Part shown: positions 15,885 through 45,219 of the stretch, piece after piece | Layout of the letters: every line of letters starts with the position of its first letter | Numbering within the stretch: the first letter of the stretch is position 1 | From: Aquificaceae bacterium | GTDB lineage: Bacteria; Aquificota; Aquificia; Aquificales; Aquificaceae | Length of the DNA stretch: 64,000 bases | Assembly: GCA_027079305.1 (NCBI GenBank) | Contig: JALWVU010000055.1 | Location: 310,001-374,000 of the forward strand | Reading direction: 5' to 3' | Notes under the pieces: generated by a model | What the model saw: the letters and a program-made list of their open reading frames with translations, nothing else | Database searches by the model: none | Told to the model about the DNA's origin: nothing | Translations under genes and position numbers: made by a program

Positions 15885-16361
15885 TTATTGTATTATTGTT
15901 AAATAGGTGGATTTAAGATCACAAATATATTCATGTGAGGTATTAAGCTTGATAACGCATACTTCTAACTTGACCTCTATATTTGTAGCTGTAAAAAGGA
16001 AGCCTAAACCACCATTGCCACAACTCATCCAATAGCTGTCAACGACATTTTCAATCATGCATTCTAAATTGCAGAGGTATCTGTTATTACATATACCTTT
16101 TAAAAGCTTTTCCGGCACTTCATTAGTGCTGTTCATTACATAAAGAGTAGCATAGTAGACTGTGGCGTCGGTATTAACGTTCCAGCTAATGAGGAAAGCT
16201 TCTCCCACCTTTATAGAAGATTTATCTGTATAGAAGCTATCTATGTGTATATAAGTTCCAGAATAACGAATAATATGAGGGTCAAGAGAATCCTGTGTGT
16301 TTTGGTTTCCTCCTCCACATGAGGCTAGAAAAATCATCAAATATAGTAAAGTTTTTTTCAT
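15885..16361 (-). CDS. Putative lipoprotein, unknown function
   Basis: 158 residues from the ATG at 16361, which has GGAGG seven bases upstream; the longer frame starting at 16403 has no such site. The N-terminus MKKTLLYLMIFLASCGGG is a lipoprotein signal with lipobox LAS-C. The mature part has six or more further cysteines (CNNRYLCNLEC, WMSCGNGG, EVCVI, EYICDL), suggesting disulfides in the periplasm. A beta-rich domain (SSIKVGEAFLISWNV) recalls an Ig-like or cohesin-type strand pattern, but I do not recognise a family. Markedly more AT-rich than its neighbours; probably acquired with the following gene. Confidence 0.6.
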   Translation of the reverse strand: MKKTLLYLMIFLASCGGGNQNTQDSLDPHIIRYSGTYIHIDSFYTDKSSIKVGEAFLISWNVNTDATVYYATLYVMNSTNEVPEKLLKGICNNRYLCNLECMIENVVDSYWMSCGNGGLGFLFTATNIEVKLEVCVIKLNTSHEYICDLKSTYLTIIQ

Positions 16362-16389
16362 GATACTCCTCCAAACATAAATTATCTGT

Positions 16390-17477
16390 TTAAAATCTAA
16401 CACCAGTAGCTAAAGTTATCCTGTGCACTATATTATCTATTACTGATATTCTATCGTCAATTGCCATAGGTCTTTTGCCTTCAATCCTAAACCAGTATGG
16501 ATTATACATAACATCTAAGAAAAAGTGTTTTAAGTTTAAACCAAAATGAATTTCGCTGGATATATATATCATTGAGCCTGCTTCTACTTGAAACACACGT
16601 CTAGGTGAAAGACCAGCATTGTTTACTTTTGTCCACCCATACTTGCCTATACGTAAAGGCCCTATAACACGCAAAGGTCCCATTTCTAATAACTTCGGTA
16701 TATATATGTATACCTGTTTACCATATACTTTGTTGAAGCCTATCCCTCCACATAAACCCTCAAAAGTTATATCTGACCTTATAATAATAGCAGAGCGCTC
16801 TGCAGGACTCCTTCCAAAGGACCACCACGTAACTGGTTGTCTTGTCTTTATATTACAATAACCTATCCAGGTTTTTATAAAATCATATTTAACGCCTGTA
16901 TATATATTCTGAAAAGTGAAATCTTGAAGTAGTGTATAGGTCGTGTCGCTTTGAAGTTCCTGAATATTAGTAAATTCTCCATTTTCTATATCAACATAAT
17001 AAACTTTATAACCATCTTCAAGAACAGCCTTATTTATAATTAACTTTGAATTATATACTTCTTTGTCAAAAGTATATCCAATAAATACATCAAACTTTAT
17101 ATATTTGCTTTTGCTTAAAAGATCAAGAAAGAAAAGATTTAAACTAAGCAAATCCCTTTCATAGTGATTTTTTTTCTCCATAAACCGAAAACTCTTTTGC
17201 TTGTTTTTCCTATAGGATATACCTTTTCATATCTAAATACATCACGCCATAATATCTTAAAGTACGCTAAATTAACATGCTCATAGCTAATATCAAATGC
17301 TTGTTGCGCATCATCACTGCTTGTATATTTATTATAATTAGACTTAATAAAGTTAATTTGGTACCCAACTCCTATCTCTAAACCATTCAAAGGAGTCAAT
17401 TTGTCCGTTGCAAATGAATATGAGACCAAAAATATTATTGAAAAGACCATAAGCGTAGTGGAAAGATATGTATACAT
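16390..17477 (-). pseudogene. Envelope protein split by a frameshift at an A8 run
   Basis: Two minus-strand frames read as one protein: the first (17477 to 17139) begins with a signal peptide (MVFSIIFLVSYSFA) and GLEIGVGYQINFIKSNYNK; the second (17181 to 16390) continues with alternating hydrophobic strands (SKYIKFDVFIGYTFDKEV, KVYYVDIENGEF) and ends RITLATGVRF, with a terminal Phe as in outer-membrane beta-barrels. They overlap at eight A residues (T8 at 17168-17175 on plus); a -1 shift there joins WRKK to NHYERD. It may be a broken gene, a phase-variable tract, transcriptional slippage or an assembly error. Strongly AT-rich. No family recognised. Confidence 0.6.
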
Positions 17478-17563
17478 GAAATTAATTATAACAAATCCGA
17501 AGAAGATATCGAGGTAAGCCGAGCCTGTTGAAAAAATCCTCATTTTATTGAAGGACTGAAGAT

Positions 17564-17640
17564 GTCAAGATAAGCCCTCCAGAGTGTAGTATAGGAAGAT
17601 AAAAGTCCTGAGAAAGCTCGAAATAGTCTCAAACTTAGGA
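17564..17640 (-). mobile_element. Remnant of a second insertion sequence (transposase 3' end only)
   Basis: Read on the minus strand from 17639, this stretch encodes 24 residues and a stop that align without gaps to the last 24 residues of the adjacent transposase, with 12 identical (ETI, S, L, FI, LY, L, E, S positions), and the stop falls at the same place relative to a GTCAA end at 17564. The rest of this older copy is missing and its broken edge abuts the intact element. Confidence 0.75.
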
Positions 17641-17644
17641 CCAT

Positions 17645-18316
17645 GTCAACTTTTAACCTCCAGAAGAGTGTAGAGAGTGATGAAAGAAGCAAGCCAGCTC
17701 CAAATAGTCTCATACCTGGCGTTCCAGGGAAATCTCTTGTAAAACCTACTAAGCCTGTACTTTATAGGGAAGAACCGCCTCTCCACCACATTCCTCTTCC
17801 CAAAAGTCTCGTGAACCCACTTTATTGGAAGCTTCCTGACAGCACTTACATACCAGGGACCTTTGTCAGTTGTGCATACCTTGGCTTTTGTACTACTTAG
17901 CACTACCTGTGCTGTCCACGAATCCCTCCTAGCTGTCAGACTTGCATACACAGGCCTGCCTTGCTTGTCCACCGCAAGCCACAAATAGTAGAATTTCCTT
18001 CGCTTCTTTATCTTCGTCTCGTCCACATACACCCATAGCGCATGAGTGTACAATGCTCTGAACATCTTGCCCACTGAGTGGAACCACTCTCTAATTGCTT
18101 CTATGCTTGCTCCATAGCCTTCGTCTGAAAGGTATTTCTGAACGTCTCTCAGAGACATACCTCTGAAGTAGAGCAGGACTGCTTTTGCCTTGACACTTGA
18201 AGGGATTCTATGCCAGTGGTAAACTTTAATCAAGTAGTTCTCTTACAAGCCTTGGAGCACTCATATTTCAATTCTAACTTCTCCGCTCGGAGGGGTCCCT
18301 CCCTTAAAAAGTTGAC
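17645..18316 (-). mobile_element. Compact insertion sequence, IS6-like
   Basis: 672 bp bounded by perfect 10-bp inverted repeats GTCAACTTTT (17645-17654) and AAAAGTTGAC (18307-18316). The transposase fills almost all of it and its TGA lies inside the left repeat. No convincing target-site duplication is seen in the flanks, perhaps because it landed beside an older copy. Confidence 0.8.
17646..18233 (-). CDS. DDE transposase (IS6-like)
   Basis: 195 residues from a TTG at 18233; a stop lies four codons upstream. N-terminal helix-turn-helix (VLLYFRGMSLRDVQKYLSDE), then the catalytic core: WVYVDETKIKKRRKFYYLW (first Asp), VCTTDKGPWYVSA (second Asp) and KRNVVERRFFPIKYRLSRF (Glu). The order and spacing fit IS6/IS240-type transposases. 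All three acidic residues are present and the frame is open, so the element may be active. It shares 12 of its last 24 residues with the remnant just downstream. Confidence 0.82.
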   Translation of the reverse strand: MIKVYHWHRIPSSVKAKAVLLYFRGMSLRDVQKYLSDEGYGASIEAIREWFHSVGKMFRALYTHALWVYVDETKIKKRRKFYYLWLAVDKQGRPVYASLTARRDSWTAQVVLSSTKAKVCTTDKGPWYVSAVRKLPIKWVHETFGKRNVVERRFFPIKYRLSRFYKRFPWNARYETIWSWLASFITLYTLLEVKS

Positions 18317-19327: not shown

Positions 19328-21283
19328 TTACTGGTAGCTGTTGTCCTCCTTGTGGGGAACTATCCTGAGGATTGCCTCGTCAGGATTGACCTGATCTCCT
19401 ACTTTGGCAAAGATCTTCTTGACTATCCCGTCTATGGGGGCGTGGATCTCGTTCTCCATCTTCATGGCTTCCACTATGGCAACCGTCTGGCCCTGCTCAA
19501 CGGGCTGGCCTTCCTCGACGAGTATCTTGGCTACCTTGCCGGGCATAGGAGGCGTTACGTCGCCGGGTTCGGTAGCCTTGGGTATTCCACCTTCCGCGGT
19601 CTGAGCGGTTGTGGTGGTAGCTCCGCCCTGGGCTGGTATGGCCTCTTTCTGCGGTATGAGCTGTATCTCCTCGAGTCTTCCGTCCACCCTGACGTAGTAT
19701 TTCCTCGGCTTACCGGGCTGGTCCTCGAGGGAGACGCCCTCTACCTTCACTTTGAACTTGTCCCCGTGGTAGATGATCTCGAACTCCACAGGAGCGGCGC
19801 CGACCACCTTTCCAGCTTCGGTCTCCGCTATCTCGGGAAGCTCTTCCACAGGCTCGGGGTGAAGCTCTCCCTTCTCCCTGAGGGTAAGGAATTCCTTGGC
19901 CTGCATGGGGAAGAGTATGTAGAGTAATATCTCCTCGTCTGTGGGTTCTCTCCCGAGGAGCTTCTCAAGGTCAGCTTTGGCCTTATCCCACTCCTGCTGA
20001 TCCGCGAGGTCTCCGGGTCTGATCGAGAAGTCGGGCTCCTTTCCGGGACCGAGTATCTTCTCCACCAGCTCTTTGGAAAGGGGCCCCGGTGGCTTTCCAT
20101 ACTTGCCCTCCACGTAGTCCCTGACTTCCTTGGTTATGGTTTTGTATCTCTCTCCCGTTATGACGTTGAGAACCGCCTGAACTCCAACTATCTGGGAGGA
20201 GGGGGTGAGGAGAGGAGGGTATCCGAGGTCCTTTTCTACGTTTGGAACCTCCGCAAGGGCCTCCTCTATCTTGTCGAGGGCGTTTGCCTCCATCAGCTGG
20301 GCTACCATATTGGAGATCATACCGCCCGGTATCTTGTGGATAAGGACCTGTGCGTTCACTCCCGCGTATTCGGTCTCATACTTTCTGTATTTCTTCTTTA
20401 TCTTCTTGGCTTCCTCCGCTGCCTCAGCTATCTTGGCAAGATCGAGGCCCGTGTCAAAGGGCGTGTCCTGGAGAGCGGCCACTATCGTTTCGGTAGCAGG
20501 GTGCGAGGAACCGAAGGCGAGAGGTGATAGGACCGTATCGAGCATATCCACGCCCGCGAGGACCGCCATCATGTGGTTTATGGTGGCCATCCCGCTCATG
20601 TCGTGGTTGTGCAGGAGGACGGGGATCTTGCCCTCGGTAGCCTCCTTTATGCCCTTGATTATCTGGTAGCACTCGAAGGGTGGCATTATCCCTGTGGCGT
20701 CCTTGAAAGAGATCCAGTCGGGTTCCATGTCTGCGAGCTCCTTCGCGTATTCCATCCACTTCTCGTAGGTGTGAACGGGAGATCTGGTGTAGCTTATCTC
20801 CGCGTGGACCTCGCCCCCGAACTCCTTTATCGCCTTGACCGCTACCTCTATGTTCCTGTTGTCGTTTAGAGAGTCAAAGACCCTGAAGACGGTTATCCCG
20901 TTCTCTATCGCCTTCTCAACGAACTTCTTGACCGTCTTGTCCGACCTGGGCCTGTATCCCACTATGTTCTGGCCCCTGAAGAGCATCTGGAGCTTGGTGT
21001 TGGGCATGACCTCCTTGATGCGCCTGAGCCTCTCCCAGGGATCTTCCTTCAGATACCTGAGACACACGTCGTATGTAGCTCCTCCCCAAACCTCCACTGC
21101 GTAGAATCCGCACTTGTCCAGCTTCTCGCAAAGGGGAAGAAGGTCGTCGGTCCTGACACGTGTGGCGAGCTTACACTGCTGTCCATCCCTGGGAGTTAGG
21201 TCTGAGATGTGTATCTTCTTTTTAACACCTTTCTTTTCAAACTCCTTCATCTTCTCCCTGATCTCCTCGACAACCTCGATCAT
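19328..21283 (-). CDS. cfiA: 2-oxoglutarate carboxylase large (biotin) subunit, or pyruvate carboxylase subunit B
   Basis: 651 residues. N-terminal carboxyltransferase (HMGL-like) domain: HISDLTPRDGQQC (about 23-35), AVEVWGGATYDVCLRYL, MLFRGQN, FRVFDSLND, and the metal-binding HNHDMSG; a PYC/OADA domain in the middle; C-terminal biotinyl domain with VEAMKMENEIHAPI (lysine biotinylated). This is shared by pyruvate carboxylase B/oxaloacetate decarboxylase alpha and the Hydrogenobacter CfiA that carboxylates 2-oxoglutarate to oxalosuccinate. The choice of CfiA rests on length, the adjacent 472-residue biotin carboxylase, and icd at the head of the same run. RBS GGAGG precedes ATG 21283. Confidence 0.78.
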   Translation of the reverse strand: MIEVVEEIREKMKEFEKKGVKKKIHISDLTPRDGQQCKLATRVRTDDLLPLCEKLDKCGFYAVEVWGGATYDVCLRYLKEDPWERLRRIKEVMPNTKLQMLFRGQNIVGYRPRSDKTVKKFVEKAIENGITVFRVFDSLNDNRNIEVAVKAIKEFGGEVHAEISYTRSPVHTYEKWMEYAKELADMEPDWISFKDATGIMPPFECYQIIKGIKEATEGKIPVLLHNHDMSGMATINHMMAVLAGVDMLDTVLSPLAFGSSHPATETIVAALQDTPFDTGLDLAKIAEAAEEAKKIKKKYRKYETEYAGVNAQVLIHKIPGGMISNMVAQLMEANALDKIEEALAEVPNVEKDLGYPPLLTPSSQIVGVQAVLNVITGERYKTITKEVRDYVEGKYGKPPGPLSKELVEKILGPGKEPDFSIRPGDLADQQEWDKAKADLEKLLGREPTDEEILLYILFPMQAKEFLTLREKGELHPEPVEELPEIAETEAGKVVGAAPVEFEIIYHGDKFKVKVEGVSLEDQPGKPRKYYVRVDGRLEEIQLIPQKEAIPAQGGATTTTAQTAEGGIPKATEPGDVTPPMPGKVAKILVEEGQPVEQGQTVAIVEAMKMENEIHAPIDGIVKKIFAKVGDQVNPDEAILRIVPHKEDNSYQ

Positions 21284-21305: not shown

Positions 21306-22724
21306 TTAAAGTCCGTGGTAAGAGGCTATAACCGCGGAAAGGAAGGCAACAAAGTCCTCTTTATCCCTGTGCTCCTTGTAATCGAAGACCTGAGGATGCT
21401 CCTCGAGATACTTGGTCGTAAACCTACCCGCCCTGAAATCGGGCTCCTTCATGATCTCCACAAGGAGCGGTATGGTGGTTTTTACCCCGGTTATCTCGTA
21501 TGTCTCGAGTGCAGCCCTCATTCTGTCCACAGCTATCTCCCACTCGGGAGCCCAGACGATCAGCTTGGCTATCATCGAATCGTAGTAGGGGGTGACCTCA
21601 AACCCTCTGGAGGCCGCGTGCTCCACCCTGATGCCAAAACCCCCAGGAACGTAGTAGCGCTCTATCGTGCCTACAGAGGGAGCGAAGTTGTTCTTCGGAT
21701 CTTCCGCGTTTATCCTGCACTCTATGGAATACCCTTTAAACTCTATGTCCTCCTGCTTGTATTTGAGCTTCTCGCCCGCCGCGATCCTCAGTTGCCACTT
21801 GACTATGTCTATGCCCGTCACCATCTCCGTCACCGGGTGCTCTACCTGTATACGGGTGTTCATCTCTATGAAGTAAAGGTTTCCCTCTTCGTCCGCTATG
21901 AACTCCATGGTTCCCGCGTTGTAGTAGCCTATCTCCTTTGCAGCCTTTGCCACTATGTTTCCGTAGTATTCCCTCTTCTCAGGAGTGAGGAGTAGGGAGG
22001 GGGCTATCTCCACGAGCTTCTGGTTCCTCCTCTGTATGGAGCAGTCCCTCTCCCCGAGGTGTATGACGTTCCCGTATTTGTCCCCGAGAACCTGGAACTC
22101 TATGTGCTTGGGATTTTCTATGAACTTCTCAAGCAGAAGATCCCCGCATCCGAAGGCCTTTTGGGCCTCGCTCTGAGCGCTTTCGTAGTTCTTAACCAGT
22201 TCCTCCTCGTTCCTGCATATCCTGATTCCCCTTCCACCGCCTCCGGCGGTCGCCTTCAGAAGGACGGGATATCCTATCTCCTTTGCTATCGCCTTGGCCT
22301 CCTCCACATCCTTAAGAACCCCGTCCGAACCGGGAACTACTGGGACCCCTGCCTTCTTCATGACCTCTTTCGAGCGGGCTTTGTCCCCCATCAGCTCTAT
22401 GACCTGCCAGGGAGGACCGACGAAGGTTATCCCCGCCTCCTCGCACATCCTGGCAAACTCCGCGTTCTCCGCGAGGAAGCCGTATCCGGGGTGTATCGCG
22501 TCCGCTCCCACCTCGAGGGCGAGGTCTATGATCCTCTGCTTGTTCAGGTATGTGTCGAGGGGATCCACACCTATCATGTAGGCCTCGTCCGCCATCTTCA
22601 CGTGGCGGGCGGTCCCCTCTATCTCGTTGTAGATGGCGACCGTTTGTATGCCCAATTCTTTGGCGGCCCTGATTATCCTGCAGGCTATCTCGCCTCTGTT
22701 GGCTATAAGGAGTTTTTTGAACAT
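21306..22724 (-). CDS. cfiB: 2-oxoglutarate carboxylase small (biotin carboxylase) subunit
   Basis: 472 residues, ATP-grasp biotin carboxylase: KLLIANRGEIACRIIRAAKE at the start, VGPPWQVIELMGDKARSK, the glycine-rich loop LLKATAGGGGRGIR (about 158-171), RDCSIQRRNQKLVE, FIEMNTRIQVEHPVTE (catalytic region, about 287-302). It carboxylates the biotin of the partner subunit using ATP and bicarbonate. Followed 22 nt later by cfiA. Its start overlaps the stop of a Uma2-family gene (TGATG), so translation is tied to that gene. AccC is the main alternative and cannot be excluded by sequence alone. Confidence 0.8.
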   Translation of the reverse strand: MFKKLLIANRGEIACRIIRAAKELGIQTVAIYNEIEGTARHVKMADEAYMIGVDPLDTYLNKQRIIDLALEVGADAIHPGYGFLAENAEFARMCEEAGITFVGPPWQVIELMGDKARSKEVMKKAGVPVVPGSDGVLKDVEEAKAIAKEIGYPVLLKATAGGGGRGIRICRNEEELVKNYESAQSEAQKAFGCGDLLLEKFIENPKHIEFQVLGDKYGNVIHLGERDCSIQRRNQKLVEIAPSLLLTPEKREYYGNIVAKAAKEIGYYNAGTMEFIADEEGNLYFIEMNTRIQVEHPVTEMVTGIDIVKWQLRIAAGEKLKYKQEDIEFKGYSIECRINAEDPKNNFAPSVGTIERYYVPGGFGIRVEHAASRGFEVTPYYDSMIAKLIVWAPEWEIAVDRMRAALETYEITGVKTTIPLLVEIMKEPDFRAGRFTTKYLEEHPQVFDYKEHRDKEDFVAFLSAVIASYHGL

Positions 22725-23305
22725 CAGAGGACCTCCTCCATAAGGTCTTTTAAGTTTACTCTAATACCACCAAGGACTTCAAAGGTTTTTTCCCACCCGT
22801 GGACTATCCAGTCTTTGTTCTTTTCCGCAATAAGAACCTTTTTAGGCCTTGTGAAAATCCATATCACCTTCTCAACACCTGCATCTAAAAGCTCTTGAGT
22901 CTTTTCAAAAGTGTAGTCCTCAACAGAAGCGTAACCCTTTAAGTCCACTTTTACATCCACTTCTATAACCACCTTCGGTAGCACCTTCGTGTATTCTTCT
23001 GTAAAACCGAACTTCTCCTTATCAAAAATGGCTATATCAAGGAGCCTGTAAGAGTCTTTCCCAGTAAAGAATCCAAGCTCATTGGCGGTTATCACATATC
23101 TTTTCTTATCAACCTCGGAAAATAGATATGCAACTAATAGTGCTACCAAAAAAGCTTGCAGTTCACTACTTCCCATAATTGCCTCTGGTGGGAGTTTGCC
23201 TTTGAGGACTTTTTGGTAGTTGCGGTAGTATATGGGTTTGCCTTTTACTTTTTCGTAGGTTAACACTTCAAGAAGATCCTTTTTGGGAAGATTAACTGCT
23301 ATCAT
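22724..23305 (-). CDS. Uma2 family (DUF820) nuclease-like protein, copy A
   Basis: 193 residues. Shared core of the four copies in this locus: GKPIYYRNYQKVLKGKLPPE and MGSSELQ near the N-terminus, then a PD-(D/E)xK-like site with Asp90 (LLDIAIF) and Glu115/Asp117/Lys119 (VVIEVDVK), and KTQELLDAGVEKVIWIF. The catalytic residues are intact. Biological role of Uma2 proteins is not established. It overlaps the DUF262/DUF1524 gene upstream by 4 nt and cfiB downstream by 1 nt. Confidence 0.85.
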   Translation of the reverse strand: MIAVNLPKKDLLEVLTYEKVKGKPIYYRNYQKVLKGKLPPEAIMGSSELQAFLVALLVAYLFSEVDKKRYVITANELGFFTGKDSYRLLDIAIFDKEKFGFTEEYTKVLPKVVIEVDVKVDLKGYASVEDYTFEKTQELLDAGVEKVIWIFTRPKKVLIAEKNKDWIVHGWEKTFEVLGGIRVNLKDLMEEVL

Positions 23306-25020
23306 TGGAAATGCTCCTCCGTATATATGCTCAATACCAGTTCTTTCAAGTTTTTATGTCTGTTTTCAAGTTCGCTTCTTGTCCATTTTGTATACTGTTG
23401 TAGCAGAGTATTGTTTAGTAGTGTAAATTCTCTGCCTTTTGCTTCTATAAGCAGTTTTTTCTTTTCATTGAAAGGTTTATTCCTCATCTTAGAGTTCAGA
23501 TTTCCTTTTATCAAGGTCAGATTACCTAGTTTGTTGACATACTTATCGTAGTCATAACCAAATATTTTCTTCCATTCATCTGTTGGGCTCCTTGGAAGTA
23601 TATGTTCCACCGTTATGTTCTCCAAATTATCAAGTAGATCCCTTTCCTTTGCACTATATTCTATTCTCAGTAGAGTATATTTAGCCAATCGTCCTCTAAA
23701 CTTTCCGTAAAAATCTTCAGCATCAAGGTGAGATTCAATGGTTTCTTTATTTGGTAAGTCTTTAGCTAAATTATCCATAATTTCATCCGTACTTTTGTTG
23801 TTCTTTATATATTCCAATGTTTCGTAAACAGGTCTGAGTCTTACTGTAGGAGTTTTACCCACTAACCAATCCAAATAAAGTCTCTTCTCTAAAGCTTTAA
23901 CAAACTCAAGAAATCTTTCCTCACCTTTAACTTTATAGAACCATACTACAGCTCCTATCCATTCTGAACTGGGATAAAATTCACGCAGTATAATTATCAT
24001 ATTCTTAAGCTTAGTTTTTCCACTACTGTCAATAGGCAAATTATCTATCTTATCTAAATCCTTAATTAGACCTTCGTAAAGATCTGTTACACTTGACAGT
24101 AGATCTTTGAATTCCGAAACTTTTATTTCGTTGTTCTGTATTAGTTTCGTATATTCTTTAAATAGAGCTTCTTTTGGTTTCTGAGGATTATAGTAACTCC
24201 TTATAAATCCTAAGATAGCATCAAACTCGTTTTGCCCAAAACGTTCTTCGGAAAATTCAGTTTCTAATCTTTCCCATTCTTTCACAAACTCTCTTCTTGC
24301 TTGCTCATTAGGTAATCTTTCATATATGTATGATTTTATCAAATCCGCATTGGTTAGAGGTAGCCCTCGGGAGTTTATAACATTAAAGATGTTTATTGCA
24401 GTTTCAATTTCACGAGTTGAAATAACAACCATGTAGGTTTGCAAGTTTAGAAAGCTTATAAATTTCTCCAATACATCCAACGATTTATCTTCCAACCATT
24501 TTTTAAATACATCTAAAGCTTCTCTAAATCTCGGATATTTTATTTCTTCTGCTTTTCCACGTATTATAGCCTCATACTCTTTAGACTCTGGTCTGCTATC
24601 AGGAGATTCAAATTTTATTCTAAAGTCTTCATTTCTATTAAGCGTCCTAGCTGGTGGAGAATATATAAAGTTATTTAGCTCAGCTCTCAACTCATTATCA
24701 TTCACAATATCACGCAGGGTAGCATACAGCAAAGATATAGTTGTTAATCTTTGTTGTCCATCTATGACCTTATATAAATTCCTACCTTCCCTGCTCAATA
24801 CAATACTTCCTAAGAAGTAGTAGCCTTTTCCGGATTCAAAAGCTTCCCATAAATCCTCCATAAGCTGTTGAAAGTTTTCTTTGTCCCATACAAACCTTCT
24901 TTGGAATGGAGGGATTATATAAAACTTGTCAGGAGAGAATACCTCAGCTATAGTCTGTTTCTCAGCGTATAACCTTTCCTCATTGGGAATAACTTTCCCT
25001 TCTTCGCGTATACCCACCAT
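23302..25020 (-). CDS. DUF262/DUF1524 protein (GmrSD-like)
   Basis: 572 residues. N-terminal DUF262 (ParB-like nucleotidase fold) with IPPFQRRFVWDKENF and the signature VIDGQQRLTTISLLYATL (about 84-101); a long helical middle; C-terminal DUF1524 HNH-type nuclease with TVEHILPRSP and KLGNLTLIKGNLNSKMRN. Same two domains as GmrS+GmrD, the type IV enzymes that cut glucosylated-hydroxymethylated phage DNA, here in one chain. Both active sites look complete. AT-rich compared with cfiAB and icd, suggesting acquisition. Between Uma2 copies B (20 nt upstream) and A (4-nt overlap). Confidence 0.85.
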   Translation of the reverse strand: MVGIREEGKVIPNEERLYAEKQTIAEVFSPDKFYIIPPFQRRFVWDKENFQQLMEDLWEAFESGKGYYFLGSIVLSREGRNLYKVIDGQQRLTTISLLYATLRDIVNDNELRAELNNFIYSPPARTLNRNEDFRIKFESPDSRPESKEYEAIIRGKAEEIKYPRFREALDVFKKWLEDKSLDVLEKFISFLNLQTYMVVISTREIETAINIFNVINSRGLPLTNADLIKSYIYERLPNEQARREFVKEWERLETEFSEERFGQNEFDAILGFIRSYYNPQKPKEALFKEYTKLIQNNEIKVSEFKDLLSSVTDLYEGLIKDLDKIDNLPIDSSGKTKLKNMIIILREFYPSSEWIGAVVWFYKVKGEERFLEFVKALEKRLYLDWLVGKTPTVRLRPVYETLEYIKNNKSTDEIMDNLAKDLPNKETIESHLDAEDFYGKFRGRLAKYTLLRIEYSAKERDLLDNLENITVEHILPRSPTDEWKKIFGYDYDKYVNKLGNLTLIKGNLNSKMRNKPFNEKKKLLIEAKGREFTLLNNTLLQQYTKWTRSELENRHKNLKELVLSIYTEEHFQ

Positions 25021-25040: not shown

Positions 25041-25655
25041 TTAACTTAACCATTTTTTCAACTCCCCAGAGCTGTTCCCAACAATCTTCACCAAATTCAT
25101 AACCTTATCCTCTATCAAATCTATATCCTCATCTATACCTTGAACCACCCACTTTTTGCCCTTTTCCGCAACGAGAACCTTCTTAGGTTTCGTAAAGATC
25201 CATATCACCTTCTCAACTCCGCAATCGAGAAGCTCCTGAGTCTTTTCGTAGGCGTAAGATTCAACAAGTCCGTAATCCTCTAAATCCGCTTTTGTATCTA
25301 TTTCTATCACGAGCTTTGGGGGTATCCTTGTATATTTTCCTGTAAGCTTAAACTTATCCTTTTCAAAGACCGCTATGTCAAGGAGACGGTAGGTGTCCTC
25401 GCCCGTGAAGAAGCCGAGTTCTCCGCTGGCAACTATAAAGTCTTTCTCAAGCTCTTTTGCCAGAAAAGCTACCAAGAGCGCCATCAAAACCGCATGAAGA
25501 TCACTGCTCCCCATAACCGCCTCCAGCGGGAGTTTGCCTTTGAGGACTTCCTTATAGCCCCTGTAGTAGATGGGTTTACCTTCTTTGGTGATTTCGTAGG
25601 TCAGTTTTTTAAGAAGTTCCTTTTTCTCTTCCTTTACCTTTTGAGTTACCGCCAT
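25041..25655 (-). CDS. Uma2 family nuclease-like protein, copy B
   Basis: 204 residues. Same plan as copy A: EGKPIYYRGYKEVLKGKLP, MGSSDLH, Asp93 (LLDIAVF), Glu118/Asp120/Lys122 (LVIEIDTK) and KTQELLDCGVEKVIWIF. An N-terminal Lys/Glu-rich helix and a longer C-terminal tail (IDEDIDLIEDKVMNLVKIVG) differ from copy A. Begins one base after the stop of copy C, so those two are almost certainly co-translated. Confidence 0.85.
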   Translation of the reverse strand: MAVTQKVKEEKKELLKKLTYEITKEGKPIYYRGYKEVLKGKLPLEAVMGSSDLHAVLMALLVAFLAKELEKDFIVASGELGFFTGEDTYRLLDIAVFEKDKFKLTGKYTRIPPKLVIEIDTKADLEDYGLVESYAYEKTQELLDCGVEKVIWIFTKPKKVLVAEKGKKWVVQGIDEDIDLIEDKVMNLVKIVGNSSGELKKWLS

Positions 25656-25656
25656 G

Positions 25657-26259
25657 CTAAGCTACCTCTAAGAGCTTGGAGATGTTAACCTTAATACCTT
25701 CTAAGATATTAATATCCTTGTCCCATCCATGGATTATCCAGTCCTTACCTCTTTCCGCCTCCATCACCTTTTTTGTCCTTGTGAAGATCCATATAACTTT
25801 TTCCACGCCCGCATCCAGCAGATCTTGGGTTTTCTCGTGGACGTATTCTTCAAAGCTTCTGTATCTTGAAAGATCCGCCTTAGTGTCTACCTCTATAACG
25901 ACCTTCGGCGCCACGGGGATCAACTTATCCTCCAGGAGATAGGGCTTTACCTTTTCCTTTTCAAAGATAGCTATGTCTAAGTTCCTCCAGGAGCCTTTTT
26001 TATATAGGAAGCCAAGTTCACTTGAAAGAAGCAAAAACCTGTTTTCATCAAGCTGATCCAGCAGAAACTTAATCAGAAGCATTATCAGATAAGCCTGAAT
26101 CCCGCTACTTCCCATAACCGCCTCCGGCGGGAGCTCCCCCTTCAGAACCCTCCTGTAATCCCTGTAGTAGATAGGTTTGCCGTTGGCCTTCTCGTAGGTG
26201 AGGAGTTTCAGAAGCCTTTTCCTCTCCTCCTTTGAAGGCGTATTCTTTACCATAGCCAT
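25657..26259 (-). CDS. Uma2 family nuclease-like protein, copy C
   Basis: 200 residues from ATG 26259 (AGGA seven bases before; a TTG at 26265 is also in frame). Core GKPIYYRDYRRVLKGELPPE, MGSSGIQ, Asp95 (NLDIAIF), Glu123/Asp125/Lys127 (VVIEVDTK), KTQDLLDAGVEKVIWIF. Lacks the GFFTG loop of copies A and B, having GFLYKKGSW instead. Nine nt after osmC. Confidence 0.85.
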   Translation of the reverse strand: MAMVKNTPSKEERKRLLKLLTYEKANGKPIYYRDYRRVLKGELPPEAVMGSSGIQAYLIMLLIKFLLDQLDENRFLLLSSELGFLYKKGSWRNLDIAIFEKEKVKPYLLEDKLIPVAPKVVIEVDTKADLSRYRSFEEYVHEKTQDLLDAGVEKVIWIFTRTKKVMEAERGKDWIIHGWDKDINILEGIKVNISKLLEVA

Positions 26260-26268
26260 ATTCAAATC

Positions 26269-26688
26269 CTACCTAACTATCTCCACCTTATATTCAATAG
26301 GTGCCACCTTGTTTATCATGTAGGCTATCGAGCAGGTTCCCGGATCGTATATCGTCTTGTCGAGGGCCTTTCTAACATCTTCCTCGCTCACATCCCCCTT
26401 CACCTTAACGTTCAGGTATATCTTCAGAAACACCTTAGGATATCCCTCCGTTTTCCTGTCCGCGTCCGTCTCTATCTCTATGTCCTCAACATGCTTCCCC
26501 TCCTTGTGAAGGGCCTCGTAGAGGTGAATTCCCACGCACCCCGCTATTGAGTGGAAGAGGAGCTCGGGAGGTCTTATACCTCTACCCTTTCCGCCCACGT
26601 AGTCCGCAGCGTCTATGGGCACCTCCCTGCCTGCGGGACCTATCCCTACGAAGTGAAAGTCCTCCTTCTGCTTTACCTTGACCTTCAT
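26269..26688 (-). CDS. OsmC family peroxiredoxin-like protein
   Basis: 139 residues. OsmC fold with the two redox cysteines in AGCVGIHLYEAL (about 50-61) and PGTCSIAYMINK (about 116-127), and the substrate-side PPELLFHSIAGC. Members reduce organic hydroperoxides or bind small acyl compounds. RBS GGAGG six bases before ATG 26688. Its place between Uma2 copies D and C, in a run with icd and cfiBA, has no obvious functional reason; oxygen-sensitive carbon fixation would be one. Confidence 0.85.
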   Translation of the reverse strand: MKVKVKQKEDFHFVGIGPAGREVPIDAADYVGGKGRGIRPPELLFHSIAGCVGIHLYEALHKEGKHVEDIEIETDADRKTEGYPKVFLKIYLNVKVKGDVSEEDVRKALDKTIYDPGTCSIAYMINKVAPIEYKVEIVR

Positions 26689-26699
26689 CGGGAACCTCC

Positions 26700-27311
26700 T
26701 TATCGGATTTGTATGTCTTCCTCGTCCAGAAGTTTTTTAAGATTAAGCTTCACGCCTTTTAAAACTTCTATGTCCCTGTCCCAGTCCGTGGTTATCCAGT
26801 CCTTTCCGTTTTCCGCTATCAGGACCTTCTTGACCTTGGTTATATACCAGATTACCTTACGAACACCCGCATCGAGAAGATCTGTTGTCTTCTCATACAT
26901 GTATTCCTCAAAGCTCGAATACCTGCTCAGATCTGCTTTTGTATCTATCTCTATAACCACAAGGGGAGCCTTCTTCGTGTATCCATCGGCAGGATTTTTC
27001 ATGTCCTCTTTCCTGTAGACAGCTATATCCAGACTCCTGAAGTTTCCAGGAGAGGTGAAGAAGCCGAGCTTTCCACCTAAAATCGCATAGTCTTCACCCA
27101 AGCTGTCCATTAAAAACCTGCCTATCAAAAGAAGTAGTACTGCATGAAGCTCACTACTTCCCATAACCGCCTCCGGCGGAAGCTCCCCCTTCAGAACCCT
27201 CTTGTAATCCCTGTAGTATATAGGTTTACCGTCGACCTTCTCGTAGGTGAGCACTTTAAGAAGTTCCCTTCTCTTCTGGGGAGAAAGCTTTTCCTTAACC
27301 GCCATAACCAT
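26700..27311 (-). CDS. Uma2 family nuclease-like protein, copy D
   Basis: 203 residues, ATG 27311 with AGGA eight bases upstream (second ATG at 27305). Core GKPIYYRDYKRVLKGELPPE, MGSSELH, Asp95 (SLDIAVY), Glu121/Asp123/Lys125 (VVIEIDTK), KTTDLLDAGVRKVIWYI. First Uma2 copy after icd, three bases past its stop, so transcribed from the icd promoter unless an internal one exists. Confidence 0.85.
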   Translation of the reverse strand: MVMAVKEKLSPQKRRELLKVLTYEKVDGKPIYYRDYKRVLKGELPPEAVMGSSELHAVLLLLIGRFLMDSLGEDYAILGGKLGFFTSPGNFRSLDIAVYRKEDMKNPADGYTKKAPLVVIEIDTKADLSRYSSFEEYMYEKTTDLLDAGVRKVIWYITKVKKVLIAENGKDWITTDWDRDIEVLKGVKLNLKKLLDEEDIQIR

Positions 27312-27314
27312 AAT

Positions 27315-28592
27315 TTAGATCCTGTTTACGATCTCCTGGGCGTATTCCATCGTGGAGAGGGACTTAGCCTCTATACCTATCCTCTGGAAGCCTGATGCTA
27401 TGTCGGGGGTTCCCACCCTGTCCTCGAAGGTCCTTTTAACCGCGGAGTATATCCTCTCCGCAGCCTCCTTCCAGCCCAAGTATTCAAGCATCATCGCTCC
27501 CGAAAGCGTTATCGAGAGGGGGTTGGCTATCCCCTTTCCCGCTATGTCCCAGGCGGTCCCGTGAGTGCTTTCAAAGAGGGCGTATCCGTCCCCTATGTTC
27601 CCGCTGGGAACGAAGCCCGGACCGCCTATCAGAGCGGCGGCAAGGTCGGAAACGTAGTCTCCGTTGAGGTTCTGGGCTATTATCACGTCCCAGGCCTCGG
27701 GCCTCAGGACGAGTTGCATAAGCATCTGGTCGGTAATTACCTTAGAGAGCTTGACCTGCCCATCTCCAGGTTCCGCTTCTGGGTCCGTTATCACCTTACC
27801 TTCGAACTCGGGTTCCTGGGCCACCTCGAAGGCCCAGTTTATGAAGGCTCCCTCCGTCGCCTTCATTATGTTCCCCTTGCCTATAACCGCCACATTCTTC
27901 CTTCCTGTCTCGAGGGCGTATCTGAGGGCCTTTCTGACGTGCCTCTTGGTCTTGAACTCGCTCATGGGCTTCACGGTTATTCCCACGTCCTCGGGAAAGC
28001 CTTCCTCTTTTGCCCCCATCTCTTTTATCAGAAACTCCCTCGCCTTCTTGGCCTCTTCGGTTCCGGAGAAAAATTCCACCCCCGCGTAGACGTCGTCGGT
28101 GTTCTCCCTGAAGACGACCACGTCCACCCTTTGTGGGTCAGGTATGGGAGTAGGCTGTCCCATCCAGTAGACGGGACGGACCGCGGAGTAAAAGTCGAAG
28201 GCCCTTCTCAGGGCGGAGTTTATGGAACGAACACCCTTACCGACGGGAGTCCCGAGAGGTCCCTTTATACCAACTATGGCCTCTTTCAGAAAGTCCAGCG
28301 TCTCCTGAGGAAGCCTCTCTCCCGTCTTCTCCTCCGCCTTATCCCCCGCGAGGAGCTCCACCCAGATTATTCTTCTGGAGGATCCGTAGGCCTTCTCAAC
28401 CGCAGCGTTGACCACCTTTATCATGGCGGGGGTTATCTCAGGACCTATCCCGTCCCCCTCTATGAAGGGGATTATGGGCTTATCGGGAACGCTCACGGTT
28501 TTGTCCGGGTTCAGCTTTATGAACTCCCCTTCCGTGGGTGTTTTAACTCCTCCGTCCCACGGATATACGTTCTCCTCCTTTATTACCTGCAT
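27315..28592 (-). CDS. icd: Isocitrate dehydrogenase / oxalosuccinate reductase
   Basis: 425 residues from ATG 28592, which follows GGAGGAGG; the frame extends to 28649 but the extra residues are non-homologous and lie over the promoter. Motifs: FIEGDGIGPEITPAM, IKGPLGTPVGKGVRSINSAL (substrate Ser/Asn loop), PVYWMGQPTPIPDP, VVFRENTDDVYAGVEF, NLNGDYVSDLAAALIGG and ESTHGTAWDIAGKGIANP. In Hydrogenobacter the homologue reduces oxalosuccinate made by CfiAB to isocitrate; the cfiBA genes in the same run support that role here. Preceded by a near-consensus promoter and flanked by a divergent IclR gene. Confidence 0.9.
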   Translation of the reverse strand: MQVIKEENVYPWDGGVKTPTEGEFIKLNPDKTVSVPDKPIIPFIEGDGIGPEITPAMIKVVNAAVEKAYGSSRRIIWVELLAGDKAEEKTGERLPQETLDFLKEAIVGIKGPLGTPVGKGVRSINSALRRAFDFYSAVRPVYWMGQPTPIPDPQRVDVVVFRENTDDVYAGVEFFSGTEEAKKAREFLIKEMGAKEEGFPEDVGITVKPMSEFKTKRHVRKALRYALETGRKNVAVIGKGNIMKATEGAFINWAFEVAQEPEFEGKVITDPEAEPGDGQVKLSKVITDQMLMQLVLRPEAWDVIIAQNLNGDYVSDLAAALIGGPGFVPSGNIGDGYALFESTHGTAWDIAGKGIANPLSITLSGAMMLEYLGWKEAAERIYSAVKRTFEDRVGTPDIASGFQRIGIEAKSLSTMEYAQEIVNRI

Positions 28593-28610
28593 ATCCTCCT
28601 CCTGAAAAAA

Positions 28611-28691
28611 AGTGTTAAAAATTTTATGTAAGCCTCCGAAGGGTGTCAAGGATTTTTAAAACACCGTTTGAACTCTGTTAGAGTGTTAAAA
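28611..28691. promoter_or_regulatory. icd promoter and divergent icd/iclR control region
   Basis: On minus, TTGACA (28649-28644), a 17-nt spacer and TAAAAT (28626-28621) form a near-perfect sigma-70 promoter for icd. The ten-mer AGTGTTAAAA occurs at 28611-28620, just past the -10 where a repressor would block the start site, and again at 28682-28691 over the probable -10 of the divergent iclR gene; a related inverted form (TTTTAAAACACC) lies between at 28654-28665. The IclR protein encoded next door is the likely ligand. Confidence 0.65.
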
Positions 28692-42540: not shown

Positions 42541-43348
42541 GGGGTCTCTTTTTTTATCCCTTCTGCTACACGTGAGCGTGCTCGTCGCGGTCATGTCTTT
42601 CATACCTTCCTATAGGGAGGAGAGTGATGCTGTAAGGATAAGCCTGAACGGTGTGAATATAAAGGAGGTTCCCCGGCAAGCTCGTGTAAAGAGATCCTCC
42701 GAGCGGAAGAAAACCCCGAAAAAGAGGGTAGTTAAGAATAAGAATAAAAAAAGAACTATCGTAAAAAACGTAAAAAAGAAGGCAAAAAGGAAACCCCAGA
42801 AAGATGTAGTTAAGAAAAAAGCGCTTAAGAAGGAGATCATAAGGCGGAAGAAGGTTCTGGCCCGATCTAAGGGAGACAAGCGGAAAGCGGATAAAGTATC
42901 TGGGAAAAGTAAGCCTCATATAGAAAGCCCTCAGCGAAAAGAGGTAGCTAAATCAACTACCACAGATCAGGTTCTTCCGGTTAAAGAAAGTGCTTCAAAG
43001 GCTTTGCATAGAGAAACACGGGACCAGATTAAGAAGAGTTTCGTAGATAGTGTTAAAAGCTACCAAGAGAAGTACAAAGAGGAAAACCTGTCCGTAATCA
43101 GAGAAACTATCCTCTCTTACCTGAAGTATCCTCCCATAGCAAGAAGGATGGGCTGGGAAGGAACTGTAATAGTCAGATTCACACTCCTACCGGACGGAGA
43201 GCTTGAGGAGAGCGGGATAGAGAGGAGCTCCGGGCACGGGATCTTGGACAGAAGCGCTCTTGAAGCTGTCAGGCTCGCCCACAGGAACTTCCCGAGGCCT
43301 AAGGATAGGGTAACCATAGTTATCCCCATAGTTTACAAGCTGGAGTAA
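42530..43348 (+). CDS. tonB: TonB energy transducer
   Basis: 272 residues. N-terminal anchor with Ser10 and His14 four residues apart (SLLLH), matching the Ser/His pair of E. coli TonB that touches ExbD; a spacer of about 140 residues that is strongly basic (runs of Lys/Arg) rather than the usual Pro-rich; and a C-terminal receptor-binding domain (YPPIARRMGWEGTVIVRFTL, PDGELEESGIERSSG, RSALEAVRLA). End overlaps the propeller gene by 16 nt. Confidence 0.9.
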   Translation: MGIKGSLFLSLLLHVSVLVAVMSFIPSYREESDAVRISLNGVNIKEVPRQARVKRSSERKKTPKKRVVKNKNKKRTIVKNVKKKAKRKPQKDVVKKKALKKEIIRRKKVLARSKGDKRKADKVSGKSKPHIESPQRKEVAKSTTTDQVLPVKESASKALHRETRDQIKKSFVDSVKSYQEKYKEENLSVIRETILSYLKYPPIARRMGWEGTVIVRFTLLPDGELEESGIERSSGHGILDRSALEAVRLAHRNFPRPKDRVTIVIPIVYKLE

Positions 43349-45219
43349 GCTCTGCGTATAAGCCTTCTAACAGCTATCAGAATACCCACTATCAGCCAAA
43401 GGGCAGGGACACCGTTAAATGATGTGCACCCTCCTACAGTTACCGTAGTCCCTTCCTTTGTATCCACCTTCTGAGCTACTTGGACCGTAACGGTGGCAGG
43501 TATAGACCTGTTTTGATCCATATAATCCTGTAGCCAGTATGTAATCAGGTAAAAGTCCTCATTGATATGTACTGAATAGTTGTCGCTGTTATAGGGCTCT
43601 TGTGTATATACAAAGATATGCTCGCAAATGTCTCCGGGGGCAATAGTAGTGGAAGCGGAAGAGTTATTATTTGAACTATAAGCACATTCTATACTATTCA
43701 ATTCACTAAGATTGTTGTTATTTCCGGCGGCAGATATTCTATCCACATTAAAACCTTTAATAGTAACCGGTAACAAGGTATTGTTCTTGAATCTTACTGT
43801 GACATAGAAGGTTCCCCCATCAGCACTGATGGGTATGTATATATCCTCCGGATAAAAAGTCAGTCTTGGTGTGGGAACTATGGTAAAGTTCATCCCGAGC
43901 GCTCCCGAAGAGAAACCTATTCTTGTTGCCACAGCTTTGTTAAGCTGTATTCTGTACGCTGGATCTGGAGAGATTGATATCCATCCTTCCCTTCTATAAT
44001 GCGCATTAGAAAGCAATATAGTTCCCTCCCTGCTGACTATCATGTAAATCTCAGGCCCGAGAGCCTTATTAATAGCTATACCTTTAAAAGTGAGAGGAGG
44101 GATCACCTGCCAGGAGCCGTCTCTCGAGCCAGCAAGAGAACCGTTTTCCTCCGGCTTCAGGAAAATAGGAACCTTCACGACAGCGCTTCCCCGCGGATAT
44201 ATCTCGTAGAATAGACCATTCTGGCCAACAGCTATAAAGACGTTACCTCTATCCCAGATTACATCATATATAGGATCTATGGGTGCCATAGACTTCGGGA
44301 TTTCTACAGTATCATTAAGGGAAGGATCGAACTTATAGTATCTGTTTATTTCCCTTGCTTTAAAGTATGTGCTAAAGTTGCTGTTCCAATGGCCAATTAG
44401 ATCCCTCATGTCCACGTAGTATACTTTTCCCAAGTCACCCACAATAACTATGTAATTATTGTTGGCAGCTATACCGTATAGGAATGTGTGTATGCTACTG
44501 TTATCGCTCTTTCTCTTTAATCTGAACACATATTTGCCCCTATATTTTACCTCCCTGATATTCTCCACAATACTGCCTGAATTCGATTGCGGTAGAACTA
44601 CCTGAGTTATTGTGAATTTGCATATTCTGCCGTCATCACCCACACCTATAAATACACCGCTCCCTATGTGTTCTATGGCCAGTATATCGTCACCACAGAA
44701 TGTAGAGGAGAGTTCTTTAACATACCACTTGCCATTGTAAAAGGCAGCTATCACTACGATACCTTCATCACCCGAAGCAACAAAGACGGGCGCCTGAGTT
44801 AAATTGTTTCCAATTTTTACGTTTATCAATCCTCCAGCAACCGTCCATAGCTTTCTTGAGAAGAAAGTGATATTTTGTGGGTTTGTATAATTCTTTGGAA
44901 GAGGATACCATGTGAATCCCCCATCAAGTGAGACTACAAGGATTCCATAGCCGGTTTCCTGTTGGGGATCTCCAAGTCCGCCTGCTACTACAACTATATC
45001 ATAGTTTTGGTCTTGTGAAGGATTGTAGTGTTGATAGGTTAAATCGTATGTATAAACCATATTACATTGAGGCATAAAACACTGAAAGAGGTCTTTCATT
45101 ATATCCATAACTCCGAAAAACTCAAAGCCCCATTTTGTAAATTTCTTGGGGCTGAATCCAATACCAAAGATTAAACCTGGTATTGCAAAAAGAGCAACAA
45201 ATAACACCTTAAGCCTCAT
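43333..45219 (-). CDS. Secreted beta-propeller protein with C-terminal sorting-like tail
   Basis: 628 residues, AT-rich and Asn-rich unlike the neighbours. Signal peptide (VLFVALFAIPGLIFG). Repeated beta-propeller blades with VxGDxG-type turns: VVVAGGLGDP, SLDGGFTWYP (a classic Asp-box), VASGDEGIVV, IGVGDDGRIC, IVGDLGKVYYVD, AVGQNGLFYE and IVSREGTILL, as in BNR/Ycf48-like repeats. The C-terminus is VGGCTSFNGVPALWL, a hydrophobic helix and a cluster of Arg (RRLIRR), the Gly-Gly-Cys plus helix plus basic layout of CTERM sorting signals. Function unknown; likely outer-surface protein. Confidence 0.7.
   Translation of the reverse strand: MRLKVLFVALFAIPGLIFGIGFSPKKFTKWGFEFFGVMDIMKDLFQCFMPQCNMVYTYDLTYQHYNPSQDQNYDIVVVAGGLGDPQQETGYGILVVSLDGGFTWYPLPKNYTNPQNITFFSRKLWTVAGGLINVKIGNNLTQAPVFVASGDEGIVVIAAFYNGKWYVKELSSTFCGDDILAIEHIGSGVFIGVGDDGRICKFTITQVVLPQSNSGSIVENIREVKYRGKYVFRLKRKSDNSSIHTFLYGIAANNNYIVIVGDLGKVYYVDMRDLIGHWNSNFSTYFKAREINRYYKFDPSLNDTVEIPKSMAPIDPIYDVIWDRGNVFIAVGQNGLFYEIYPRGSAVVKVPIFLKPEENGSLAGSRDGSWQVIPPLTFKGIAINKALGPEIYMIVSREGTILLSNAHYRREGWISISPDPAYRIQLNKAVATRIGFSSGALGMNFTIVPTPRLTFYPEDIYIPISADGGTFYVTVRFKNNTLLPVTIKGFNVDRISAAGNNNNLSELNSIECAYSSNNNSSASTTIAPGDICEHIFVYTQEPYNSDNYSVHINEDFYLITYWLQDYMDQNRSIPATVTVQVAQKVDTKEGTTVTVGGCTSFNGVPALWLIVGILIAVRRLIRRAYSSL

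Follow-up and report, generated by a model that had tools for sequence, protein, structure and literature searches.

A single-chain GmrSD-family gene among Uma2-like genes in a carbon-fixation operon of Aquificaceae: a possible mobile defence cassette

Why should a gene for a GmrSD-family nuclease be lodged among Uma2-like genes inside a carbon-fixation operon, and does this pairing recur elsewhere? Both questions are raised by a 64,000-nucleotide stretch of an Aquificaceae genome (hereafter, the window), located in contig 55 of a 2.0-Mb, 75-contig bin (G000). The favoured answer, to which a probability of about 0.6 is given, is that a GmrSD defence nuclease is carried by a mobile cassette of divergent Uma2-like genes, a subfamily here named UmaX, and that it occupies an insertion hotspot between icd, osmC and cfiB.

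The GmrSD protein and its operon

The gene at window positions 23302-25020 (minus strand) is an intact open reading frame of 572 amino acids with an ATG start, immediately preceded by gaggaggt, and encodes a single-chain GmrSD-family protein, the sole GmrSD_N match of its genome. The sequence-only reading had placed both domains of the family in one chain, and both score over their Pfam cut-offs: GmrSD_N (DUF262) with 124.2 bits against a cut-off of 33.2 (9.4e-36) and GmrSD_C (DUF1524) with 80.5 bits against 23 (1.4e-22). PADLOC matches the protein to Orf5 (5e-78) and HEC-06 (5e-63). The N-terminal VIDGQQRLTT corresponds to (I/V)(I/V)DGQQRLTT, and residues D87-T93 are invariant in the alignments with relatives (A1, A3). 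The HNH motifs VEHILPR (with R for Q), LGNLTLIKGNLN and NKPFNEKK align with those of relatives, H473, N500 and N509 being invariant in alignment A1; the motifs in print are (E/D)H(I/L/V)xPQ, L(G/A)NLxLLxxxN and NxxFxxKK (PMC4619093; this and the other papers are cited for their accessible portions). The single-chain form itself is real, but it is the ordinary and predominant one of the published family: Eco94GmrSD and BrxU have the same two domains in one chain, the DGQQR motif and the His-Me finger residues (PMC4619093, PMC4437046). The protein would thus have two parts, a ParB/Srx-type NTPase-like domain carrying DGQQR at the N-terminus and an HNH domain at the C-terminus, and probably acts in phage defence through NTP-dependent cutting of foreign, probably modified, DNA. 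Cutting of modified phage DNA, as the earlier reading also had it, would be the activity expected from the family.

A very improbable alternative is that the protein is a phosphorothioate-dependent nuclease of the DndI/SspE kind rather than a Type IV enzyme. Its closest solved structures by sequence profile are indeed DndI 9jfl (E 1e-45) and SspE, the AlphaFold model (pLDDT 82) has DndI 9jfl as its top Foldseek match (TM 0.64) with SspE also among the best, and the domain order is common to both (PMC11662687). Such matches may, however, merely mirror which relatives have solved structures. A phosphorothioate system is further disfavoured by the lack of any DndC (TIGR03183) match in G000 and of any over the cut-off in the 8 genomes searched, and neither dnd nor ssp genes were recognised next to the locus.

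The gene is also more AT-rich than cfiB and icd, as had been noticed from the letters, with a GC content of 0.340 and a GC3 of 0.297, compared with GC3 values of 0.71-0.72 for cfiB/cfiA and 0.68 for icd. This GC3 is the second-lowest of the 54 window ORFs of at least 150 aa (median 0.617). The value of this bias as proof of recent transfer is weakened by the homologue in genome G075, which has the lowest GC among seven G075 genes measured; since that copy is AT-rich too, the composition cannot be taken solely as a mark of foreign origin. Elsewhere in the window, a second AT-rich patch (15885-18233) contains two minus-strand ORFs with a GC3 of 0.25-0.33, near an IS240-type transposase ORF, and a 628-aa ORF at 43333-45219 (minus strand) has a low GC of 0.41; neither the two ORFs nor the long one gave a Pfam or PADLOC match.

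The neighbourhood consists of the following genes, where we take the two carboxylase subunit genes to be cfiB and cfiA:

19328-21283, minus strand: cfiA-like carboxylase subunit with biotinyl domain, backbone (NCBIfam PRK09282, pyruvate carboxylase subunit B, over cut-off)
21306-22724, minus strand: cfiB-like biotin carboxylase subunit, backbone, downstream border (NCBIfam PRK08591, over cut-off)
22724-23305, minus strand: UmaD, Uma2-like, 193 aa (without Pfam match; 60% identity to UmaC)
23302-25020, minus strand: GmrSD-family nuclease gene (Pfam GmrSD_N and GmrSD_C, PADLOC, AlphaFold/Foldseek)
25041-25655, minus strand: UmaC, Uma2-like PD-(D/E)XK gene, 204 aa (Pfam Uma2, PF05685, 33.0 bits, cut-off 27)
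25657-26265, minus strand: UmaB, Uma2-like, 202 aa (Pfam Uma2 21.3 bits, under cut-off; 56% identity to UmaC)
26269-26688, minus strand: OsmC-family gene, backbone (Pfam OsmC 1.9e-12)
26700-27311, minus strand: UmaA, Uma2-like, 203 aa, in the icd/osmC junction (Pfam Uma2 22.4 bits, under cut-off; 54% identity to UmaC)
27315-28649, minus strand: icd, isocitrate dehydrogenase, backbone, upstream border (NCBIfam TIGR00183 2.7e-138, under curated cut-off)

All nine genes form a single co-directional run (icd-UmaA-osmC-UmaB-UmaC-GmrSD-UmaD-cfiB-cfiA) with spacings of -4 to 22 bp. UmaC lies 20 bp upstream of GmrSD, the start of UmaD overlaps the GmrSD stop by 4 bp, and the stop of UmaD overlaps the cfiB start by 1 bp. 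The earlier description of GmrSD as embedded among Uma2 genes agrees with the four Uma2-like genes found near it, most of them below the Pfam cut-off (only UmaC, one of the four paralogues, passes it); it needs the correction that osmC (26269-26688) stands between two of them. The UmaC model (pLDDT 86.9) has 9y1l, 3ot2 and 1wdj as top Foldseek matches (E 5e-7 to 2e-6), which is the Uma2/DUF820 fold, and D93, E118, D120, K122 and K138 are invariant across 10 sequences, so that K122 and K138 are both candidates for the catalytic, possibly migrated lysine of a PD-(D/E)XK site.

According to the proposed model, the cassette would comprise UmaB, UmaC and, as its last gene, GmrSD, the first two encoding Uma2-like PD-(D/E)XK proteins. 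It would have been inserted flush between osmC and a pre-existing umaD of the carbon-fixation operon icd-osmC-cfiBA. An insertion of this kind would keep the genes co-directional and packed, with probable co-transcription with a strongly needed operon.

Recurrence of the pairing in Aquificota

GmrSD_N matches were found in 48 of 136 Aquificota genomes, in 24 of them over the cut-off, and close relatives of the window protein are present in only five of the 136 (G000, G007, G013, G075 and G067), the named carriers being Aquifex sp., Aquificaceae and Hydrogenothermaceae bins. In G007, from another genus, the order is UmaA-osmC-UmaB-UmaC-GmrSD-cfiB, with a GmrSD 56% identical, in the same osmC|cfiB junction as in the window and without UmaD. 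In G013, from the same genus, UmaB-UmaC-GmrSD lies beside folE. This GmrSD is 86% identical over a 146-residue remnant and is broken by an in-frame stop and interrupted by a transposase gene (IS). The contig may be mis-binned or derive from another species, because the G013 bin carries two folE genes and the other bins one each; the arrangement itself was read directly on one contig. Among 24 folE loci fetched, this is the only one with a UmaX gene nearby.

The closest other homologue, that of G075 (51%), belongs to a type I-B set in which cas5 and cas3 flank it; about 7.6 kb upstream of this GmrSD, the same co-directional run has a UmaX gene with cmr3 and cmr4 on either side. At these loci (L077:12788-17485 in G075 and L078 in G067) GmrSD overlaps the start of cas3, and the G075 operon also holds cmr genes and UmaX. 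The G067 and G075 proteins are identical in reading, and one of the five clade members is almost surely a copy of the other, to judge by this identity; the G067 contig begins 107 bp upstream of GmrSD, which leaves its flank unreadable. UmaX thus shares an operon or cassette with GmrSD in 4/4 readable clade members.

Outside this clade the picture is different. No Uma2-like gene was found in the fetched flanks of the 24 other Aquificota GmrSD loci (277,741 bp in all), nor in those of six relatives from other phyla. The 24 control loci comprise every over-cut-off match not belonging to the clade, apart from four ORFs (~270-290 aa) with GmrSD_N alone, and many of their contigs are short (3.3-8.6 kb); the Uma2 profile used, which includes one antisense ORF of L008, recovered 8/8 positive-control loci. 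The contrast of 4/4 with 0/24 gives a Fisher p of 4.9e-5, or 3.4e-4 when three sites are counted, in a test that ignores kinship. The adjacency for which a lack of recurrence in other genomes had been named as the refuting outcome therefore does recur, as UmaB-UmaC-GmrSD in G007 and G013 and as a UmaX gene of the same operon in G075. It does so within one phylum and one GmrSD clade.

This recurrence bears on the view that the association is a coincidence, with the icd-osmC-cfiB junctions accepting unrelated short genes and GmrSD and UmaX being separate tenants without linkage. This view is doubtful. It draws on the unrelated ORFs without Pfam match that are present in these junctions (192 aa in G004; 244-263 aa in G012 and G018) and on the abundance of Uma2 in G000, with 17 matches. 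The conserved order beside folE, the UmaX gene in the operon of the CRISPR-embedded G075 relative and the 0/24 of other GmrSD loci all speak against it.

The same linkage could instead reflect a functional defence module, in which the Uma2-like proteins act with GmrSD, for instance as regulators, as partners of an antitoxin-like kind or as a further nuclease. The conserved gene order, the 20-bp gap after UmaC and the 4-bp overlap with UmaD would fit such a module, as would the UmaX linkage in all four readable members of the clade; Uma2 has also been termed a likely solo toxin that forms paralogue cassettes (PMC2701414). A module is nevertheless decidedly unlikely, given that UmaD is absent in G007, that UmaX flanks are mainly housekeeping genes and that most UmaX genes occur without GmrSD (119 ORFs in 91 loci, with GmrSD adjoining in two, plus the window).

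Empty, intermediate and filled junctions

OsmC is present in 46 of the 64 genomes of the family, and UmaX adjoins it in 12 of the 30 loci fetched. In G021, G009 and G023, icd, osmC and cfiB are contiguous without insert, and G016 has icd-UmaA-osmC-UmaD-cfiB without GmrSD, a layout that would be expected just before the entry of UmaB-UmaC-GmrSD. Other genomes hold different genes in the same places: G012 and G018 carry an ORF of 244-263 aa between osmC and cfiB (L145:467-1201, minus strand; L146:1895-2674, plus strand), with a similar stretch in G019, and in G004 a 192-aa ORF has a UmaX gene on each side. None of these ORFs of G012, G018 and G004 gave a Pfam match, and the G012 copy gave none with PADLOC. 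A label of uracil-DNA-glycosylase, assigned by eye to the G012/G018 ORF, was dropped on the same two grounds. The inserts of these junctions are AT-rich as well (GC 0.33-0.36). The two junctions thus form a small insertion hotspot in which GmrSD is one tenant among several.

The favoured reading, that of a mobile cassette, is thus supported by the gene order kept at a second site beside folE, by the empty and intermediate sites and by the 4/4 linkage. What weighs against it is the small size of the clade, with five GmrSD matches of which one is almost surely a duplicate. Vertical descent with repeated loss is a possible alternative to movement, because identity to the G000 protein decreases from G013 to G007 and then to G075, which is the order of kinship. 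No recombinase or integrase gene was found in the cassette among its ORFs or by Pfam, and no target duplication or terminal repeat was seen by eye at the junctions. As for viral or plasmid carriers, neither the GmrSD and UmaX alignments searched against viral_contigs nor UmaC searched against plasmids found a relative. The presence of the cassette in related genomes, both at the same junction and elsewhere, suggests movement of the three genes as a unit.

UmaX in other operons and the meaning of the cassette

Relatives of UmaC occur in at least 73 of the 136 Aquificota genomes. Among the matches listed, 119 UmaX ORFs in 101 runs were collected by hand from 91 fetched loci. Their flanks are co-directional within 60 bp in 132 of 186 cases (0.71), hardly above the figure for the remaining gene pairs of these loci (439 of 689, 0.64), so that tight packing was rejected as an argument on its own for targeted operon insertion.

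A Pfam scan of 129 of these close co-directional flanking proteins (132 minus three unscanned) returned fumarase alpha (11) and beta (11), OsmC (11), biotin carboxylase (9), isocitrate dehydrogenase (6) and CoA ligase (3). UmaX separates the class I fumarase alpha and beta genes at 11 loci (L195, L198, L199, L202, L210, L212, L217, L218, L220, L223 and L226), the flavoprotein and iron-sulphur subunit genes of fumarate reductase in two (L231 and L233, from G110 and G111) and the beta and alpha genes of succinyl-CoA ligase in one (L068, from G010), another being interrupted by a contig end. One locus each has UmaX in csm4|csm5 and in cmr3|cmr4. In the type III-A CRISPR operon of G110 (L074:953-9228), the Uma2-like genes between csm4 and csm5 include a fragmented one, and a nucleotidyltransferase/HEPN-like pair, recognised by eye, lies between csm3 and csm4. 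Junctions of the reductive TCA cycle look over-represented among the 51 UmaX junction types, an impression for which no significance is claimed.

In a quick tree with many weak forks, the fumarase-junction copies form one clade, which makes a single entry followed by inheritance probable for them. The Aquificaceae copies from the icd-cfi, folE, sucCD and csm4|csm5 sites are intermixed in the same tree, and two families fall within shared clades, as would be expected for genes moving between operons.

A broader and rather unlikely proposal is that UmaX are homing-type selfish genes, inserting themselves flush into junctions of essential and highly expressed operons (reductive TCA, CRISPR) from which their removal would be costly, and able to carry passengers such as GmrSD. 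If so, UmaB-UmaC-GmrSD would be a minimal, recombinase-free defence carrier.

Several elements of the locus have precedents. The spread of Uma2 was proposed to be selfish in 2005, with virtually random insertion and no recurrent partner described in the accessible part of that paper (PMC551604). UmaX has the fold and the paralogue clusters of Uma2/COG4636/DUF820, whose patchy spread is described as selfish (PMC551604, PMC2701414), but it is divergent, mostly under the Pfam cut-off, located at specific junctions and recurrently partnered by GmrSD. A Uma2 gene, aq_1194, lies inside the PFOR cluster of Aquifex aeolicus, and thus likewise within a reductive TCA cycle operon; GmrSD is unmentioned in the accessible portion of that report (PMC10052474). 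Published GmrSD neighbourhoods abound in Type I RM genes, helicases and integrases (PMC4619093), whereas the window copy is found among Uma2-like genes in a carbon-fixation operon. Literature searches, with subscription papers mostly outside their coverage, found no paper pairing Uma2 with GmrSD, DUF262 or DUF1524, and none joining GmrSD with Aquificota names. The single-chain form of GmrSD and the Uma2 paralogue cassettes (PMC2701414) were already known; the recurrent Uma2-like/GmrSD cassette is what is new here.

Uma2 is a much expanded and uncharacterised nuclease family, and the cassette gives a concrete locus at which to ask whether Uma2 proteins cut DNA and drive their own insertion, with empty, intermediate and filled sites sequenced in close relatives, beside a known defence nuclease. 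It would also place defence genes outside the classical islands, inside a core operon of CO2 fixation.
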